From positions 125,140 to 189,139 of the forward strand of contig NZ_KE384027.1 in the NCBI RefSeq assembly GCF_000423505.1: DNA of 64,000 nucleotides, in the 5' to 3' direction. A program made the position numbers and the translations under genes. This DNA is from Pseudoclavibacter soli DSM 23366. Lineage in GTDB: Bacteria; Actinomycetota; Actinomycetes; Actinomycetales; Microbacteriaceae. Each line of letters begins with the position of its first letter. The first letter of the stretch is position 1. This document shows, piece after piece, positions 978 through 54,095 of this stretch. A model generated the notes under the pieces. That model saw nothing but the letters and a program-made list of their open reading frames with translations. It was not told the DNA's origin and made no database searches.

Positions 978-2094
978 TCAGCGCCCATAAACGTACGGCT
1001 CGTGATCAAGTACCGAAGTGATCTCGAGGCCGTCATCGGTGAATTGCAGCTGGTAAGTGATATCTTCCGAAAGGTCGAATCGATAATCTGAATCCCACTC
1101 ATCGACGCTGTGCGTCATTTTCACTGTTGGGCCGGTTCCATTGCCTCCTGGTGCCGTGAGCGAGTGCCCCCACCCATCTATTGCCCCGCTGGGCAGTTCG
1201 AAGCCACTCGCGTCTTTATACATGGTCTCTAGCAGCGAGGTACCACCGGTATTGGGGCTGATCAATTCGCACTGGCCGAGCACTGTCAAACTGTCTCCGT
1301 TTGCGTTCGCTGTGTACACGCTCAGTGCCAACGGGTCATTCATGCCGACAGTCCCACCTCGACCGCCAAAGCCGCCGGTATACGCTTCCAGCTGTGTCAG
1401 CGTCACGATGTCGTTAGCTCCGTCGCCATTGACATCGCCCACGTAGGGGTCGATGGCGTAGGCAGCGCTTGACTCCTCGCGCTCATGGCCAGCCGAAAAC
1501 CCGTTGCGCGGAAACCCATCGATGTAGAGGCCGAGGGCACCTTCTGTCTGAGACTCAGCGTTGAGTACCTCGGTCGGGCTCCAGATGGCGCCGTCTTCAA
1601 AGTTCGTGGCCTCGTCAGGCAGCTCGGCATCCTCGGGCGTGCCTAAGAACCCGGCATTCTGCTCGATGAATTCGCGATCGAAGTCGGTGACGGGTGCGGT
1701 TTTGAGTAGCTCGAGTAGGGCGTCTTCGCTGAGGGATGCGTGGGCTGGTGCCGGAGGCGATTTGTCCGGCGAGGTCGGTGCCGCCTGCGGCGGTGACCCC
1801 GGTGCCGGCCTGTGTGGCGGCAAGGCCGGTGGTGGTGGCTGCGGATGCGGCGATGCCGGTGGCTGCTGGGCCGGCGAGGTAGCCGCGTTTTTGGTCTTGT
1901 TCGGGTTGCAGCCCGCGCAGCCATTGGGCCAGCTGCGGGTAGATGTTGGGGTGGGCGAGCAGGGGTGCGATCAGCTCGGGGTGTTCAGGTGCATGCGTGG
2001 CGATTTGCTGCGACTGTGCCGGGGTGGTGGTGAGCTCACGCACCTGCGCAAGCAGGGCATCCACCGGCTGATTTGGGTGTGGTTGTTCGGTCAT
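978..2094 (-). pseudogene. Broken LRV/FG-GAP-like membrane protein (internal deletion and frameshift)
   Basis: Residues 1-104 or so (ATG at 2094, MTEQPHPNQ) match the N-termini of the two intact paralogues at 20863-23814: a leucine-rich-repeat-variant block (VDALLAQVRELTTTPAQ) followed by an Ala/Thr/Gly-rich linker. After AAGGTDLAGQIASG the reading frame is lost. From about 1750 leftwards a different frame encodes the matching C-terminal domain (APAHASLSEDALLELLKTAP and a calcium-loop-like DVNGDGANDIVTL). The segment missing at the junction (about 1745-1755) corresponds to roughly 120 residues of linker plus the only membrane helix in the paralogues. The deletion thus both removes the membrane anchor and puts the halves out of frame. 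A short GC-rich match at the two deletion edges suggests recombination inside the repetitive linker. The C-terminal half is still open to the TGA at 978, so decay is recent. Confidence 0.8.
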
Positions 2095-20862: not shown

Positions 20863-22290
20863 TCAGTAATCGTGAGTCACTTCGGGAGTGTCGAAGGCGA
20901 TGGCATCGTCTTGCCATGAGATGTGGAACGTCGCGGTATAGCCTTTGTTGACGGAGTTGCTCAGATCTTCACCCATAGCTTCTCGATTCATCGTCAGGAT
21001 TGCGCCGGCGTCTGTGCTCTTGAGCTGGCGGTCCCAATAAGAGACCTTGACATCGCCATCGGTGACCGCTGCATCGGGTACTGCCTTGCGGAACGCCTCT
21101 TCCAACTTGGTGCTGTAGTCGACGTTGTCGGCACTGCGACTCTCTCCGGACTCTGGAGAGCTCATATGCTCAGCGTCAGTCAGCACCTCCTGGTTGAGCA
21201 CCTCAAGGGCAGTGCCATCGGCATTGGGCGTGTAGATCGTCAGAGCGGTGTAAACGGCGCTGCTGCCCCAGCCTGCATCTCCGTAGGTCGACATCATCGA
21301 GAGCGTGACGATGTCGCTGGCGCCATCGCTGTTGATGTCGGTGACCACGATGTCATTCGATGATCCGGGTTTGGTGCGGTAATACCCATGCTCATAGGCC
21401 ATATAGGTGCCGTCGTTAGTGAGCATGGTCGTGAAGGCCTCTGTTGAGGGTGAGGTCTGCTGAGGCGACGAGCCCTCTTCGAGTGAGATAACGCTGTCGG
21501 TAAACCGCTCTGGTGCCTGAGCTCCATCGTTCAGGTTCGCATAGAGCTGTTGATCATGCTCGCCGAGCGGGGCAGTGAGCAGCAGTTCGCGTAGTGCGGT
21601 TTCGCTCAAGGATGCGTGGGCTGGTGCGGTTGTCACGGTTTCGGCGGTGGTGTTGGTCGCGTCGTTGTTGAGGGCGATGTAACCGGCCGTGCCACCGCCT
21701 GCGACGACGGCGACGGTGGCGACGCTGGCGACGACTTTGCCGGCCGTGATGCCGGTGGCGGTTTTGGTCGCTGCGGCGGCGCTGGCTTTGCCTGCGGTTG
21801 CGGCGCCGGCTTTGCTGGCCGCTGCGGTGGCGGTGGTGGGGTCGATCGGGGTGATGCCGGCACCCAGCGAGCTTGGTGTGGCGGCGTGGGTGGTAGCTTG
21901 CGCGGCGTGTTCGATGGCGGTGTTGGCCAGGCCTGCGGCGTCGGTGGTGGCCGAGGCGGCGGCTCCGGTGCCAGCCTGTGTGGCGGCAAGACCGGTCGTG
22001 GTGGCTGCCGATGCGGCAACGCCGGTGGCTGCTGGGCCGGCGAGGTAGCCGCGTTTTTGGTCTTGTTCGGGTTGCAGCCCGCGCAGCCATTGGGACAGCT
22101 GCGGGTAGATGTTGGGGTGGGCGAGCAGGGGTGCGATCAGTTCGGGGTGTTCAGGTGCATGGGCTGCGATTTGCTGCAACTGTGCCGGGGTCGTGGTGAG
22201 GTCACGCACCTGCGCGAGCAGGGCATCCACCGGGCTGGAACCGCCAGCACCCGTCGCCGCATCGTTAGTGTTGACTGGCTGATCGCTCAT
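20863..22290 (-). CDS. LRV-domain membrane protein with FG-GAP-like exodomain, paralogue 2 (475 aa)
   Basis: The N-terminal about 75 residues are a leucine-rich-repeat-variant (LRV) block (VDALLAQVRDLTTTPAQLQQ, then HPELIAPLLAHPNIYPQL). An Ala/Thr-rich low-complexity linker runs to about residue 185, and one membrane helix lies at about 187-207 (VVASVATVAVVAGGGTAGYIAL). The outer C-terminal domain starts with APAHASLSETALRELL and carries a calcium-loop-like DINSDGASDIVTL (about 318-330) of the FG-GAP/VCBS type. There is no N-terminal signal, so the LRV part should be inside and the rest outside. AGGGGGAA precedes the ATG at 22290. It follows its paralogue by 36 bp. No function is known to me; a surface sensor or binding protein that reports inward is a reasonable guess. 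Confidence 0.8.
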   Translation of the reverse strand: MSDQPVNTNDAATGAGGSSPVDALLAQVRDLTTTPAQLQQIAAHAPEHPELIAPLLAHPNIYPQLSQWLRGLQPEQDQKRGYLAGPAATGVAASAATTTGLAATQAGTGAAASATTDAAGLANTAIEHAAQATTHAATPSSLGAGITPIDPTTATAAASKAGAATAGKASAAAATKTATGITAGKVVASVATVAVVAGGGTAGYIALNNDATNTTAETVTTAPAHASLSETALRELLLTAPLGEHDQQLYANLNDGAQAPERFTDSVISLEEGSSPQQTSPSTEAFTTMLTNDGTYMAYEHGYYRTKPGSSNDIVVTDINSDGASDIVTLSMMSTYGDAGWGSSAVYTALTIYTPNADGTALEVLNQEVLTDAEHMSSPESGESRSADNVDYSTKLEEAFRKAVPDAAVTDGDVKVSYWDRQLKSTDAGAILTMNREAMGEDLSNSVNKGYTATFHISWQDDAIAFDTPEVTHDY

Positions 22291-22326: not shown

Positions 22327-23814
22327 TTACTGCCAGGCCACCAGCGACAGGGGCTTGACTTGGATTGCCTTGTCGATGGTCACCTCATCGTCGGAGAAGC
22401 CGATCGAGAAGGTGACGAGATCGGTGCCCTGAGAGCTCGGTGCGTCTCCGTCGGAGCCCCAGTAGTTGCTGCGCCGTGCGGTGAGTGTGGTGCCGTCTTC
22501 GTTGAGCGCGATCGCTGTGTAGCCGGCGGCTTGGCCGCTGGTGCTGGTGTGCGTGCCACCCGCTGCCTTGTACGCGGTATCGAGCTGTGGGCTGGCGCTG
22601 GCAGTGCCGTCGATGACGTCTTTTGTCTCGTCGAAGATGGAAAGCTGCGATCGCACGGTGAGTGCGGTGCCGTCTTCATTGGGGGTATAGACGGTGAGCG
22701 CCGAGAAGCCGTCGCCTGACCCGTTGGTTGTGACTGTCGATTTCGGATCGGGATTGGTCACGATGGTGACGATGTCTTTGATGCCATCGCCGTCGACATC
22801 GCGCACCGCTGGGCGCTGGCTGCGGGTGATGCCGTATGACGAGAGCGTCGGGAAGTTTGTGCTGGTGATCAGTGAGCCGTCATTGGTGACTCGAATGCTC
22901 ACGCCGCTTGCCGACACGGTCAGCAGTGACCCGCTATACGAGGTGAGACTGGGCGCGGTGCCACCGTTGAACGCTGCGATGTCGGTCAGATAGCTGCGCT
23001 CAAGATCGCCGACCGGTGCGGTCTTCAGCAGAGCGAGCAGCTCATCGTCGCTGAGCGAAGCCGCTGCCGGCAGTGTTTCTGAAGGCTCTGCGGAGGTGCT
23101 GGCGGTCTCGGTGGTGTCATCGCTGCTGTTGAGCGCGAGATACCCGGCGGTGCCGCCGCCCGCCACGAGAGTTGCGGCCGCGAGCCCGGCGATGATCTTG
23201 CCTGCACTGAGCCCGGTGCCCGTTTTGGCAGCTGCGGCCGCGCCCGCCTTACCAGCGGTTGCTGCTGCGGCTTTGCCGGTTGCTGTGGTGGCGGTGGTGG
23301 GGTCGACTGGTGGGATGGGCGTGGCCGCGCCGCTGGCAGCGTGTGCGGTTACGGTGCTGGCAGGGTCGATGGGCGGCAGTGAGGCCGCACTGGTGGCAGT
23401 GTGTGCGATGGGGTCGATGCTGGGAATGGGCGGGATGGCGCCGGAGGCGATTTGCCCGGCGAGGTCGGTGCCGCCTGCAGCGGTGGCTCCGGTGCCGGCC
23501 TGTGTGGCGGCAAGCCCGGTGGTGGTGGCAGCGGATGCGGCGACGCCGGTGGCTTCCGGGCCGGCGAGGTAGCCGCGTTTTTGGTCTTGTTCGGGTTGCA
23601 GACCGCGCAGCCATTGGGCCAGCTGCGGGTAGATGTTGGGGTGCGCCAGCAGGGGTGCGATCAGTTCTGCGTGTTCAGGTGCATGCGTGGCGATTTGCTG
23701 CAACTGGGCCGGGGTCGTGGTGAGGTCACGCACCTGCGCGAGCAGGGCATCCACCGGGCTGGAGCCGCCGGCACCCGTCGCCGCGTCGTTGGCGTTGGCT
23801 GGCTGATCGCTCAT
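22327..23814 (-). CDS. LRV-domain membrane protein with FG-GAP-like exodomain, paralogue 3 (495 aa)
   Basis: Same architecture as the next gene downstream. The first about 110 residues are nearly identical to paralogue 2. The linker is longer and contains Pro/Ile/Asp-rich units (IPPIPSIDPIA, LPPIDPAST, IPPVDPTT). The membrane helix is at about 207-228 (IIAGLAAATLVAGGGTAGYLAL), and the outer domain has DVDGDGIKDIVTI at about 339-351. ATG at 23814 is chosen because AGGGGGAATC precedes it and it aligns with paralogue 2; a longer reading frame to 23922 has no support. The conserved N-terminus and divergent outer domain suggest selection for variation outside the cell. It probably starts a two-gene transcript. 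Confidence 0.8.
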   Translation of the reverse strand: MSDQPANANDAATGAGGSSPVDALLAQVRDLTTTPAQLQQIATHAPEHAELIAPLLAHPNIYPQLAQWLRGLQPEQDQKRGYLAGPEATGVAASAATTTGLAATQAGTGATAAGGTDLAGQIASGAIPPIPSIDPIAHTATSAASLPPIDPASTVTAHAASGAATPIPPVDPTTATTATGKAAAATAGKAGAAAAAKTGTGLSAGKIIAGLAAATLVAGGGTAGYLALNSSDDTTETASTSAEPSETLPAAASLSDDELLALLKTAPVGDLERSYLTDIAAFNGGTAPSLTSYSGSLLTVSASGVSIRVTNDGSLITSTNFPTLSSYGITRSQRPAVRDVDGDGIKDIVTIVTNPDPKSTVTTNGSGDGFSALTVYTPNEDGTALTVRSQLSIFDETKDVIDGTASASPQLDTAYKAAGGTHTSTSGQAAGYTAIALNEDGTTLTARRSNYWGSDGDAPSSQGTDLVTFSIGFSDDEVTIDKAIQVKPLSLVAWQ

Positions 23815-30091: not shown

Positions 30092-30323
30092 TGTGCACTC
30101 CTGCCCAGCGATCAGGCCCGCGCAGCGGACGGGCTTGTGCACTCCTGCCCAGCGATCAGGCTGCAAGTGGCGCGCGGCACTTGTGCAGCCGCCACTGCGG
30201 CGCGTGATTTCGGCAGACACTGCGGCGACGTGGCAGCGCGGCAGGCCGATCACTGGGCAGTTCGGTACACCCCGGGATCGCACCTGAGCATGGAGTGTCG
30301 CGTTCACTGGGCAGTTCGGTACA
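30092..30323. repeat. Family 1 palindromic intergenic repeat, compound copy
   Basis: Left ends occur twice as identical 26-bp direct repeats (30092-30117 and 30136-30161, containing CTGCCCAGCGATCAGGC). Right ends occur twice as identical 20-bp repeats (30250-30269 and 30304-30323, containing TCACTGGGCAGTTCGG). The reverse complement of the right end matches the left end through TGCCCAG-(T/C)-GATC. The same end motif bounds the repeats at 52643-52783 and 53951-54095. Doubling of both ends suggests nested insertion or local duplication. It separates the DUF6882-like gene from the acyltransferase gene, whose 3' ends converge here, so it may also act as a bidirectional terminator. Confidence 0.75.
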
Positions 30324-32540: not shown

Positions 32541-32600
32541 GTTTCTGCGTCGTTCTCGCAACTCTGGGGCGCGTATGAGGCCGTTTTCGACGCAGAAACG
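32541..32600. repeat. Family 2 palindromic intergenic repeat, copy A
   Basis: Ends form a perfect 12-bp inverted repeat: GTTTCTGCGTCG (32541-32552) and CGACGCAGAAAC (32588-32599). A 56-bp core matches 47581-47636 with 7 differences by eye. It lies between the acyltransferase start and the LysR gene stop. A single stem-loop RNA would form on either strand. Confidence 0.75.
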
Positions 32601-47580: not shown

Positions 47581-47636
47581 TTTGTGCGTCGTTCTCGCAG
47601 CGCTGGGCCGAGAATGACGCCGTTTTCGACGCAGAA
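47581..47636. repeat. Family 2 palindromic intergenic repeat, copy B
   Basis: Begins TTTGTGCGTCG and ends CGACGCAGAA. An inner stem, GCGTCGTTCTCG with CGAGAATGACGC (11 of 12), is present in this copy. It starts 2 bp after the flavoenzyme stop and lies between two converging genes. 49 of 56 positions match copy A at 32542-32597 by eye. Confidence 0.75.
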
Positions 47637-49198: not shown

Positions 49199-49304
49199 CA
49201 GGCGCTCTCGGGGTGCGGGGAGGGGCAGGCGCTCTCGGGGGCGATGTGCGGTGGGGGTGAAAAGGTCCGGTGGGGGTGACGCAGCCTCACCCCTGCCGCA
49301 CATT
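49199..49304. repeat. Short direct and inverted repeats in the CitMHS upstream region
   Basis: CAGGCGCTCTCGGGG occurs at 49199-49213 and 49226-49240. GGTGGGGGTGA occurs at 49250-49260 and 49269-49279. GATGTGCGGTGGGGGTGA (49243-49260) is complementary at 15 of 18 positions to the stretch ending at 49304 (TCACCCCTGCCGCACATT). Within 49023-49370 nothing else looks coding, and the CitMHS promoter must be here. Confidence 0.6.
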
Positions 49305-49336
49305 CGCCGCATTCTTCACCCCTGCCGCGCGTCGCG
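49293..49336 (+). repeat. 44-bp direct repeat, left copy
   Basis: Contains GCATTCTTCACCCCTGCCGC. Matches 50068-50111 at 41 of 44 positions. The two copies bracket the DUF3800 gene and lie in the same orientation. Confidence 0.8.
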
Positions 49337-52642: not shown

Positions 52643-52783
52643 GGCGTGTCCCTTCCTGCCCAGTGATCGCGTGTGGTGCTGGGGCGGCGCTGGTGCTGGC
52701 CGCGAGATCTCGCGGGAAACCGTGGGCGTTCACTGTGCCCGCGCCGCCCCAGCGCCGATCACTGGGCACGACGGTACGCCTCC
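52643..52783. repeat. Family 1 palindromic repeat, left copy flanking HEPN/MNT
   Basis: 141 bp beginning right after the response regulator stop. Both ends carry TGCCCAGTGATCG in inverted orientation; GCTGGGGCGGCGC (52678-52690) pairs exactly with GCGCCGCCCCAGC (52741-52753); the centre holds a perfect palindrome CCGCGAGATCTCGCGG. The whole element can fold into one long stem. About 90 percent identical by eye to 53951-54095 in the same orientation. It has no open frame of interest. Confidence 0.85.
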
Positions 52784-52791
52784 TTCGTGCG

Positions 52792-53199
52792 TCAGTGGCG
52801 GCGCAGCACGTCTTCCATGCTGTCGACGACGCGTTGCGCGCGCTTGAGATGCGCGGCAGTTTCACTCAGACTCACTTGGCCGTGCCCGTACTGCGCAAGG
52901 CTCTTGGCCTCGATTAGTCGGCTGAACCCTGCCGCTACGGGAGCTTGCCCTGGCAGCGCCGCCTTGAGCAGAGCGATCGCCTCACGATGATCGTCGCCCC
53001 GTGCATATTCTCCGAGCCGGCACATGCAGATGACATCGCTTGCGGCGATCGCTGCCAGCACGGCATTGCTCACCGATGTCGCCCGCTGGGCGCTGGTCTC
53101 GCCGCTCACGTGAAGGTCGGCGAATGCCAAGAACTCGCGAGCGCGGTCGGCCCGCTCTCTCAGCTGTGCCTCGTTGAGATGACCTCGGCGTGCGAACAT
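52792..53199 (-). CDS. HEPN-domain protein, probable toxin of a HEPN/MNT pair (135 aa)
   Basis: A small all-helical protein with the layout of HEPN toxins: two long helices, and between them CRLGEYARGDDHREAIALL, where an Arg (61 or 67) and His71 make the R-x(4-6)-H-like active motif of HEPN ribonucleases; the spacing from Arg67 is short, so Arg61 may be the functional residue. The start is directly after the MNT gene stop (TGA at 53200, ATG at 53199), as in HEPN/MNT operons. In such pairs the HEPN protein cleaves RNA and the MNT protein inactivates it, often by AMP addition. The pair is bracketed by family 1 repeats. Confidence 0.78.
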   Translation of the reverse strand: MFARRGHLNEAQLRERADRAREFLAFADLHVSGETSAQRATSVSNAVLAAIAASDVICMCRLGEYARGDDHREAIALLKAALPGQAPVAAGFSRLIEAKSLAQYGHGQVSLSETAAHLKRAQRVVDSMEDVLRRH

Positions 53200-53811
53200 T
53201 CACGCCTCCAGATGCTCGGGCACAGATTGACCAACGAGAGTCACACCGTCGCGCAGCCATGACGTCACGATGGGGTCTGTCGCTGCCGCCTTCTGCCGCA
53301 GTGTGGACACATCCAGCTCGTATACCTGGGCCGGATTGCCCGTCCATCGGGTCACTGCGCTCGACAGGCTGCTGGCGAGCGCATCGCGCGCGTCAGCAGG
53401 GGCATCTTCGGGGCAGATGAGCACTAAGTCGATGTCGCTCACATCGGTCGCATCGCCGCGCGCAGTCGACCCATACAAAATCACGGATGCTCTAGGCAGC
53501 GCAGAGCTCGTCACGAAATCGCGAATTCGTTGATGCAGCTGCTCGGGTGTCGACAGTGCCGCCTGAATTGCCGGCCAGAGCAGATGTTCATCGTTGATGG
53601 CGTAGAGGTAGGCATTACCTGCCGGTTTGCGGGTAATTAGGCCGATGTGTGTCAAGAGCTGCAGCGCTCGCGCGGTCTGCGTTGGAGAGACATGAATGAC
53701 TCGCGCGATCTGTCTGCCGGTCATGGCGTAGTCGACATTAGCTATGGCTGTCAACGCACGAGCCGGGTCGGGGCGCAGCAGCAGCGATTGAAGAGGCGTG
53801 TTGAGATCCAC
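53200..53811 (-). CDS. MNT nucleotidyltransferase-domain antitoxin with N-terminal HTH (203 aa)
   Basis: Residues about 20-62 form a winged helix-turn-helix (MTGRQIARVIHVSPTQTARAL), and residues about 105-160 a minimal nucleotidyltransferase of the MNT type: ILYGSTARGDATDVSDIDLVLI holds the GS-x10-DxD catalytic motif (Gly114-Ser115, Asp126, Asp128). The start is GTG at 53811. It is the first gene of the pair with the HEPN protein. The fused DNA-binding domain and the 26-bp palindrome 26 bp upstream suggest autorepression. MNT proteins of this type AMPylate or otherwise neutralise the HEPN toxin; that is family knowledge, not shown here. Confidence 0.85.
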   Translation of the reverse strand: MDLNTPLQSLLLRPDPARALTAIANVDYAMTGRQIARVIHVSPTQTARALQLLTHIGLITRKPAGNAYLYAINDEHLLWPAIQAALSTPEQLHQRIRDFVTSSALPRASVILYGSTARGDATDVSDIDLVLICPEDAPADARDALASSLSSAVTRWTGNPAQVYELDVSTLRQKAAATDPIVTSWLRDGVTLVGQSVPEHLEA

Positions 53812-53950: not shown

Positions 53951-54095
53951 AGGCGGTGTACCTTCCTGCCCAGTGATCGCGCGTGGTGCCGGGGGCGGTG
54001 CCGGTGCGGGCCGCGAGATTTCGCGGGAAACCGTGGGCGTTCACTGTGTCCGCGCCGCCCGCAGCGCCGATCACTGGGCACGACGGTACGCCTCC
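53951..54095. repeat. Family 1 palindromic repeat, right copy flanking HEPN/MNT
   Basis: 145 bp, same orientation as 52643-52783. Ends share GTACC and TGCCCAGTGATCG; the centre palindrome is CCGCGAGATTTCGCGG, with one base changed against the left copy. It stops 61 bp before the SDR start codon. Confidence 0.85.

Follow-up and report, generated by a model that had tools for sequence, protein, structure and literature searches.

Intergenic repeats of bacteria are usually read as hairpins or as mobile debris. In looped operator pairs of the Lac, Gal and Ara type, two binding sites share one face of the helix and are separated by a short loop. REPINs and BIMEs of Pseudomonas and E. coli are, according to an excerpt of PMC3116915, dispersed extragenic pairs of inverted words with a preferred spacing and less conserved spacers. 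The internal eliminated sequences (IESs) of Paramecium show, at lengths below 150 bp, steps of one helical turn that are explained by DNA looping between the ends (excerpt of PMC3464196). Strong gyrase sites, which are present in BIME-2 repeats, extend over about 130 bp, and their G/C content follows a 10.75-bp rhythm that is symmetric around the point of cleavage (excerpt of PMC6379681).

We describe here a family of 18 elements in the 2.22-Mb draft genome (9 contigs) of Pseudoclavibacter soli DSM 23366. Three lie in the analyzed stretch of 64,000 nucleotides (C1:125140-189139, hereafter the window) and 15 lie elsewhere. As in REPINs and BIMEs, they are inverted doublets at a preferred spacing, with 18 of 18 pairs facing inward; unlike in those systems, the arms are non-palindromic, copy number is low, a RAYT was not found, the spacing is quantised in helical turns and the arms set the phase of an A/T rhythm. 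Of the marks of a REP, a palindromic hairpin word and a RAYT in the genome, neither was found. Among the marks of a MITE, terminal inverted repeats are present, and a target-site duplication, a common core and an autonomous partner were not found. Helical quantisation of length is shared with Paramecium IESs, a single 125-bp element excepted, but the present elements are bacterial, number 18, have long specific arms and extra outside arms, and give no sign of programmed excision. A length of about 130 bp in 10 of the 18 (129-131 bp) and a rhythm of about 10.7 bp recall strong gyrase sites as defined by the Topo-Seq motif, whereas the anchoring of the rhythm to sequence-specific arms rather than to a cleavage site, and the length classes from 98 to 131 bp, do not. 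Looped operator pairs differ from this set of 18 loci, several of which have no nearby promoter, and which have apparently shape-coded cores and zipper-like extra sites. In their apparent way of working, the elements resemble an IES or a looping operator pair; on present evidence, we place them in neither class.

Arms, elements and their distribution

The family is built from a 22-bp arm that is not a palindrome, GTRCC-nnn-CTGCCCAGYGATCR, beyond which weaker G-rich positions follow. The preliminary description of the window had reported three loci with inverted ends containing TGCCCAGTGATC, and these are present as described. All five exact matches of TGCCCAGTGATC in the window fall inside them; at up to two mismatches, 18 matches were counted in the window against 8.0 expected, a number attained in none of 100 shuffles. 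The features of the three loci are listed below with arm scores from a position matrix, the offset being the distance between the outer ends of the inner arm pair.

30093..30114, + strand: outer left arm of element 1 (GTGCACTCCTGCCCAGCGATCA), 31.0 bits
30137..30158, + strand: inner left arm of element 1, 44 bp inward of the outer one, 28.1 bits
30159..30246, unstranded: core of element 1, without kinship to other cores by core comparison; inner arm offset 131 by arm geometry
30247..30268, - strand: inner right arm of element 1 (GTACCGAACTGCCCAGTGATCG), 31.6 bits
30301..30322, - strand: outer right arm of element 1, 54 bp outward of the inner one, 32.9 bits
52648..52669, + strand: left arm of element 2, 35.0 bits
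52756..52777, - strand: right arm of element 2, offset 129, 33.2 bits
52792..53811, - strand: two-gene cassette between elements 2 and 3, with a 135-aa ORF that matched no family and a gene for a nucleotidyltransferase (NTP_transf_2); the layout is toxin-antitoxin-like
53958..53979, + strand: left arm of element 3, perfect consensus, 39.8 bits
54068..54089, - strand: right arm of element 3, offset 131, 33.2 bits; core a near-copy of that of element 2

Both ends of element 1 are doubled in exact copies, as had been noted: the left duplication is exact over 26 bp (30092-30117 and 30136-30161), and the right one, of 20 bp (30250-30269 and 30304-30323), can be read from the sequence. The nested insertion proposed to account for these doubled ends is not needed, since the distances to the extra arms are whole helical turns. 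Also in agreement with the preliminary description, each of the loci at 52648 and 53958 forms one long stem on folding. The central CCGCGAGATCTCGCGG-type palindrome that it noted in these two is a property of this one duplicated pair and not of the family, because the cores of elements 2 and 3 are near-copies (93% identical, alignment z 17.6).

The genome-wide search for further copies yielded the 15 elements beyond the window. The position matrix was applied to fetched stretches and a sequence-only arm model to the whole genome, and the two were concordant on the count of 18. A pattern search of the same genome with up to three mismatches found 44 places, compared with one for a backward control. 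All 50 arm matches of the model with E < 0.02 fall within the 18 inward-facing pairs; its list lacks the right arm of each of two degenerate elements (C2:135926 and C2:138552; 9.6 and 15.9 bits by the matrix). The model gave no elements beyond the 18 in the whole genome, where 150 of 1948 first-look candidates were scored, so that very weak copies may have been missed. According to a simple gene caller and inspection by eye, 13 elements precede some gene by up to about 0.6 kb, three lie between convergent gene ends, one is inside a gene and one is unclear. The neighboring genes have no evident common function. With dnaA at C1:70 kb, no near-origin pattern of elements was seen on the unordered contigs.

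Among 99 genomes searched at up to two mismatches, the family occurs only in its own genome, with one unpaired match each in G025, G028 and G089. The arm model found nothing above chance in three congeners (best E 0.02, unpaired). The same layout with another motif was also sought there, and no inverted-pair 10-mer family at three or more loci was found in 248, 256 and 286 kb; the contrast with P. soli is biased, as its own 212-kb comparison set was chosen around the elements. The strict exact paired pattern had no match in genome contigs of 84,980 species or in viral contigs, the exact single-arm pattern had none in viral contigs, and the largest array had none by blastn among plasmids or phages, all three in collections from which records of this and near genomes were possibly excluded. 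Rfam gave no match in the window, and no description of such an element family was found among open-licence papers.

Other repeats were also observed. A second family, of similar but tighter layout, is built around GTAGGGGTGAA, with an inner inverted pair 30 bp apart and additional direct copies spaced at 29 bp on one flank and at 19 bp on the opposite flank. It occurs in the window at 49249-49327 and 50102, at C2:132003-132081, 147470-147621, 149117-149155, 151163-151241, 152653-152853 and 588981-589059, and at C1:329375-329453; related stretches are found elsewhere in the genome and in the congener G002. A third, palindromic repeat of 56 bp (TTTSTGCGTCGTTCTCGCA...GTTTTCGACGCAGAA) lies at 32542-32597 and 47581-47636 of the window, the two copies being 88% identical. 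Three copies of a CRISPR-like 28-bp repeat with 61-bp spacing lie at the window edge (1-150), and three 300-bp stretches of about 91% identity (window 1766-2065, 21932-22231 and 23456-23755) are probably from paralogous genes.

Helical phasing of arm spacing and core composition

The offsets of the 18 elements are 131 (seven elements), 130 (two), 129 (one), 125 (one), 120 (two), 119 (two), 110 (one), 99 (one) and 98 (one). Five of the elements have extra outside arms, which are direct repeats 42-44, 53-54 or 65 bp further out, and the largest array has seven arms on one side and four on the other. The spacing step is about 10.7 bp in the inner and outward sets alike. Near this period, the phase concentration R of the inner spacings is 0.82 for all 18 elements and 0.956 for 14 non-duplicates; in neither case did any of 4000 uniform random sets, allowed their best period between 10.0 and 11.2 bp, come out equally strong. 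The 14 were obtained by omitting one member of each cassette-flanking pair (window 52648, C2:172465, C2:135801 and C2:149323), an arbitrary choice by which the outlier at 125 bp and the element of 110 bp dropped out. Outward spacings reach R 0.96 at 10.7 bp (n = 17), and these values are not independent because the arms are partly tandem duplications. The degenerate 125-bp element departs from both the spacing and the A/T rhythm (projection 0.00), and a phasing test with one value per length class gave p 0.33 with it and 0.016 without it.

Apart from a few pairs, the cores are not related in sequence. Clear kinship is confined to the four cassette-flanking pairs (z 17.6, 12.7, 12.3 and 5.1; next value 4.6), and alignments above z 3 make up 10 of 306 comparisons, these four included. 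In eight elements of 130-131 bp, agreement in A/T or G/C class is slightly above chance (0.584 versus 0.566, sd 0.009), and base agreement once the class is given is about at chance (0.531 versus 0.521 and 0.502 versus 0.510), so that no common descent is visible.

What the cores share is an A/T rhythm of 10.7 bp counted from the arms, with a coherent amplitude of 3.46 in the 14 non-duplicates. Random intergenic stretches had a mean amplitude of 0.42 and a maximum of 1.86, none of 2000 draws reaching 3.46; likewise, none of 2000 random genomic draws matched the strength of the rhythm, and none of 200 base shuffles of the cores attained the observed amplitude at periods of 10 to 11.5 bp. The period of 10.7 bp was the strongest of ten tried. 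No such rhythm was detected in 22 outside flanks (amplitude 0.52, with 164 of 500 shuffles equally strong). The phase agrees across length classes (2.30 radians at 131 bp, n = 8; 2.12 at 120, n = 4; 2.17 at 98-99, n = 2), and the projection is positive in 17 of 18 elements, being 0.00 at C2:135801. Counted from the arm start, A/T maxima lie at about 28, 38, 49-50 and 60 bp, and G/C maxima at about 33, 43, 54 and 65 bp.

Bending anchored at the arms would predict a G/C-rich midpoint for elements of 131 and 110 bp and an A/T-rich one for those of 120 and 99 bp. The A/T bases counted at the midpoint were 6 of 46 in the 129-131 class, 15 of 22 in the 119-120 class, 5 of 11 in the 98-99 class and none of 5 in the only element of 110 bp. 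With the latter set aside as a duplicate, the flip between the long class and the shorter ones was attained in 1 of 3003 exact permutations at the level of elements.

Two further observations concern the composition and folding of the elements. Strand bias is extreme (G+T at or beyond 0.5 +/- 0.2) in six of 18 cores, namely C2:171220, C4:186380, C2:135801, C2:138433, C2:149323 and C2:172465, compared with 3.9% of 586 intergenic windows. Rho rut sites were considered for the C-rich cores and dropped on inspection by eye, with a strand misfit at C2:149323. Folding was better than that of the shuffled core at z <= -3 in only 3 of 18 elements, and 36 single inner arms with flank had a mean single-stranded DNA energy of -2.21 versus -3.03 when shuffled.

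Origin of the copies, associated genes and candidate partners

The element at C1:334259 lies inside a gene, and orthologues from three congeners align without gaps there. A 34-residue segment scores 24, 20 and 21 at the homologous register, compared with a mean of about -30 and a maximum of 6 at 84 other registers. Two of the three congeners carry ACC-GTG-CTG exactly at the place of the left arm's GT-ACCGTGCTG-CCCAGTGATCA. Given the gap-free alignment and this congener sequence, the copy seems to have been created by substitution in place, without insertion. The rare GTG linker is found in both of its arms, and in-place substitution accounts for the left arm only.

Some intergenic spacers with elements, in turn, exceed those of the congeners, as insertions would give. 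The DUF3097-HrpA spacer measures 224-250 bp between aligned blocks versus 28-79 bp in three congeners, and the spacer upstream of a TetR gene measures 199 bp versus 124 bp in G002; in the other two congeners, 1.7-1.9 kb intervene. Between gmk and pyrF, a block of about 3 kb (element, genes, element) stands against 39 bp in G001, none in G003 and 329 bp in G002. A convincing target-site duplication, which the preliminary description had suggested seeking, was not found: across 18 elements and 14 offsets there was no 4-bp and one 5-bp flanking repeat, near the chance rate, and a duplication of 2-3 bp is indistinguishable from chance in this test. The in-gene and the longer-spacer evidence do not yet fit one simple history of the copies.

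Neighboring elements are less than 3 kb apart in five intervals, and toxin-antitoxin-like genes occur in five of five, an apparent link that was noticed post hoc:

window 52792-53811: NTP_transf_2 nucleotidyltransferase and a small partner ORF
L060: AbiEii and a winged-helix partner
L061 12959-14422: excisionase-type HTH gene, ribbon-helix-helix gene and small ORFs
L059: XRE-type HTH gene, a Gp49-like gene just under cut-off and an HSDR_N gene
L061 11354-12205: AbiEi_4 gene

The window cassette may be of the HEPN/MNT kind; its MntA match falls under the NCBIfam cut-off. In four of the five intervals, the flanking elements are near-copies in the same orientation. The cassettes may enter at an element or travel with one. 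Toxin-antitoxin genes flanked by repeated sites are also a feature of the pdif modules of Acinetobacter, but the sites seen here are arm pairs or arrays of 100-540 bp. As a separate observation, a pyrF-like protein (L059:18590-19495, - strand) has an internal run of AAGVGQ-type repeats.

The search for a partner protein covered Y1 transposases and rve-domain (DDE) loci. The only Y1_Tnp match in the genome is the tnpA of an IS605-type element, which lies beside its own tnpB; three congeners had no Y1_Tnp match. This single element (L123, C5:71809-72174) has tnpA and tnpB divergent, and no arms were found around it within a 20-kb stretch, for which reason a REP/RAYT partnership was rejected. A DDE partner was rejected likewise, as four rve-domain loci of about 3.3 kb each have no arms. 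No autonomous partner with the same ends was found, all arm matches with E < 0.02 belonging to the 18 elements; a partner could be missing from the data because the assembly is a draft in 9 contigs. The REP-associated tyrosine transposase or other partner that the preliminary description had suggested looking for was not found in these searches. Its picture of a REP/MITE-like element moved in trans is borne out as to dispersal, mostly intergenic position and inverted or multiplied ends. The REP or MITE nature and the movement in trans are not supported, in view of arms that are not hairpins, no target-site duplication beyond chance, cores unrelated except in four pairs, an in-gene copy and no partner found.

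A putative loop-closing protein and alternative readings

We consider it reasonably probable that the elements are sites at which a putative DNA-bridging protein draws DNA into a tight loop. Each element would present binding sites for one putative sequence-specific protein; these sites would be asymmetric, face inward and form a pair or, in some cases, a longer zipper. The protein would dimerize or polymerize across the two arms and so form a small loop. The cores would be kept for shape rather than sequence, with A/T recurring in 10.7-bp steps aligned to the arms and so easing the bend, and extra outside arms, roughly 4, 5 or 6 turns of the helix away, would allow more protein to bridge both flanks. 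We infer the protein, the loop and selection for the loop; a bridging protein that closes a loop would be the simplest way to account together for the quantised spacing, the arm-locked rhythm, the free core sequence, the inward orientation and the outward extension. As regards length, the reasoning is that already applied to Paramecium IESs (excerpt of PMC3464196).

The alternative that the elements are very short non-autonomous mobile elements, with the arms as transposon ends and the quantisation arising from synapsis of two ends on DNA below its persistence length, as has been proposed for Paramecium IESs, is unlikely but deserves consideration. It would be in keeping with the inverted ends, with spacers longer than those of congeners (as at DUF3097-HrpA), with the block between gmk and pyrF and with length steps like those in the excerpt of PMC3464196; for old copies, core similarity could have been lost while ends, length and bendability were held by selection for synapsis. 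Against it stand target-site duplications no more frequent than by chance, conserved arms with unrelated cores, the in-gene copy without insertion, and the finding of no arm-bearing transposase gene, with all model matches of E < 0.02 in the 18 elements and with the four rve-domain loci and the IS605-type locus armless.

Strong gyrase-binding sites, with about 130 bp wrapped on gyrase and flanks of periodic G/C content, are a very unlikely explanation. Most elements do measure 129-131 bp with a 10.7-bp rhythm, near the gyrase values in the excerpt of PMC6379681, but the gyrase pattern is fixed on its center, whereas the rhythm here is locked to the arms, with a midpoint G/C-rich at 131 bp and A/T-rich at 120 bp, and conserved specific 22-bp arms are foreign to gyrase sites. 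It is highly improbable that the elements are looping operators of an ordinary transcription factor regulating a set of genes: three of 18 are flanked by convergent gene ends, one is inside a gene, and the neighboring genes have no evident function in common, even though 13 of 18 lie within about 0.6 kb upstream of some gene. Hairpins acting as RNA or single-stranded DNA, such as REP-like elements or terminators, would fit the long stems of elements 2 and 3 and the inverted pairs at preferred spacing, which are reminiscent of REPINs in the excerpt of PMC3116915. That reading is highly improbable, given that folding beats the shuffled core at z <= -3 in just three of 18 elements, that single arms are not hairpins, that the window has no Rfam match and that a single-stranded loop leaves the helical steps unexplained.

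As for the role of the loop that a bridging protein would close, the weakest step of the proposal, it might lie in local chromosome architecture, for example in holding a supercoil at its tip or in insulating neighboring genes; regulation of the cassettes or synapsis of a mobile element are other candidates. We tentatively suggest, as a possibility that may well not hold, that the elements represent a new class of dedicated DNA-loop sites. Such a site would combine clamps that recognize a sequence with a core coded by shape and free in sequence; selection would have created it in place at many loci, and additional clamps, several turns of the helix away, would have lengthened it like a zipper. 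A specific DNA-bridging protein and tiny loops are the predictions that follow, and the 18 loci with spacing steps of a helical turn amount to a natural helical-twist experiment. If the suggested class is real, it would be DNA mechanics, not sequence, that is conserved between copies, and a loop tied by a protein would be readable from a raw genome.
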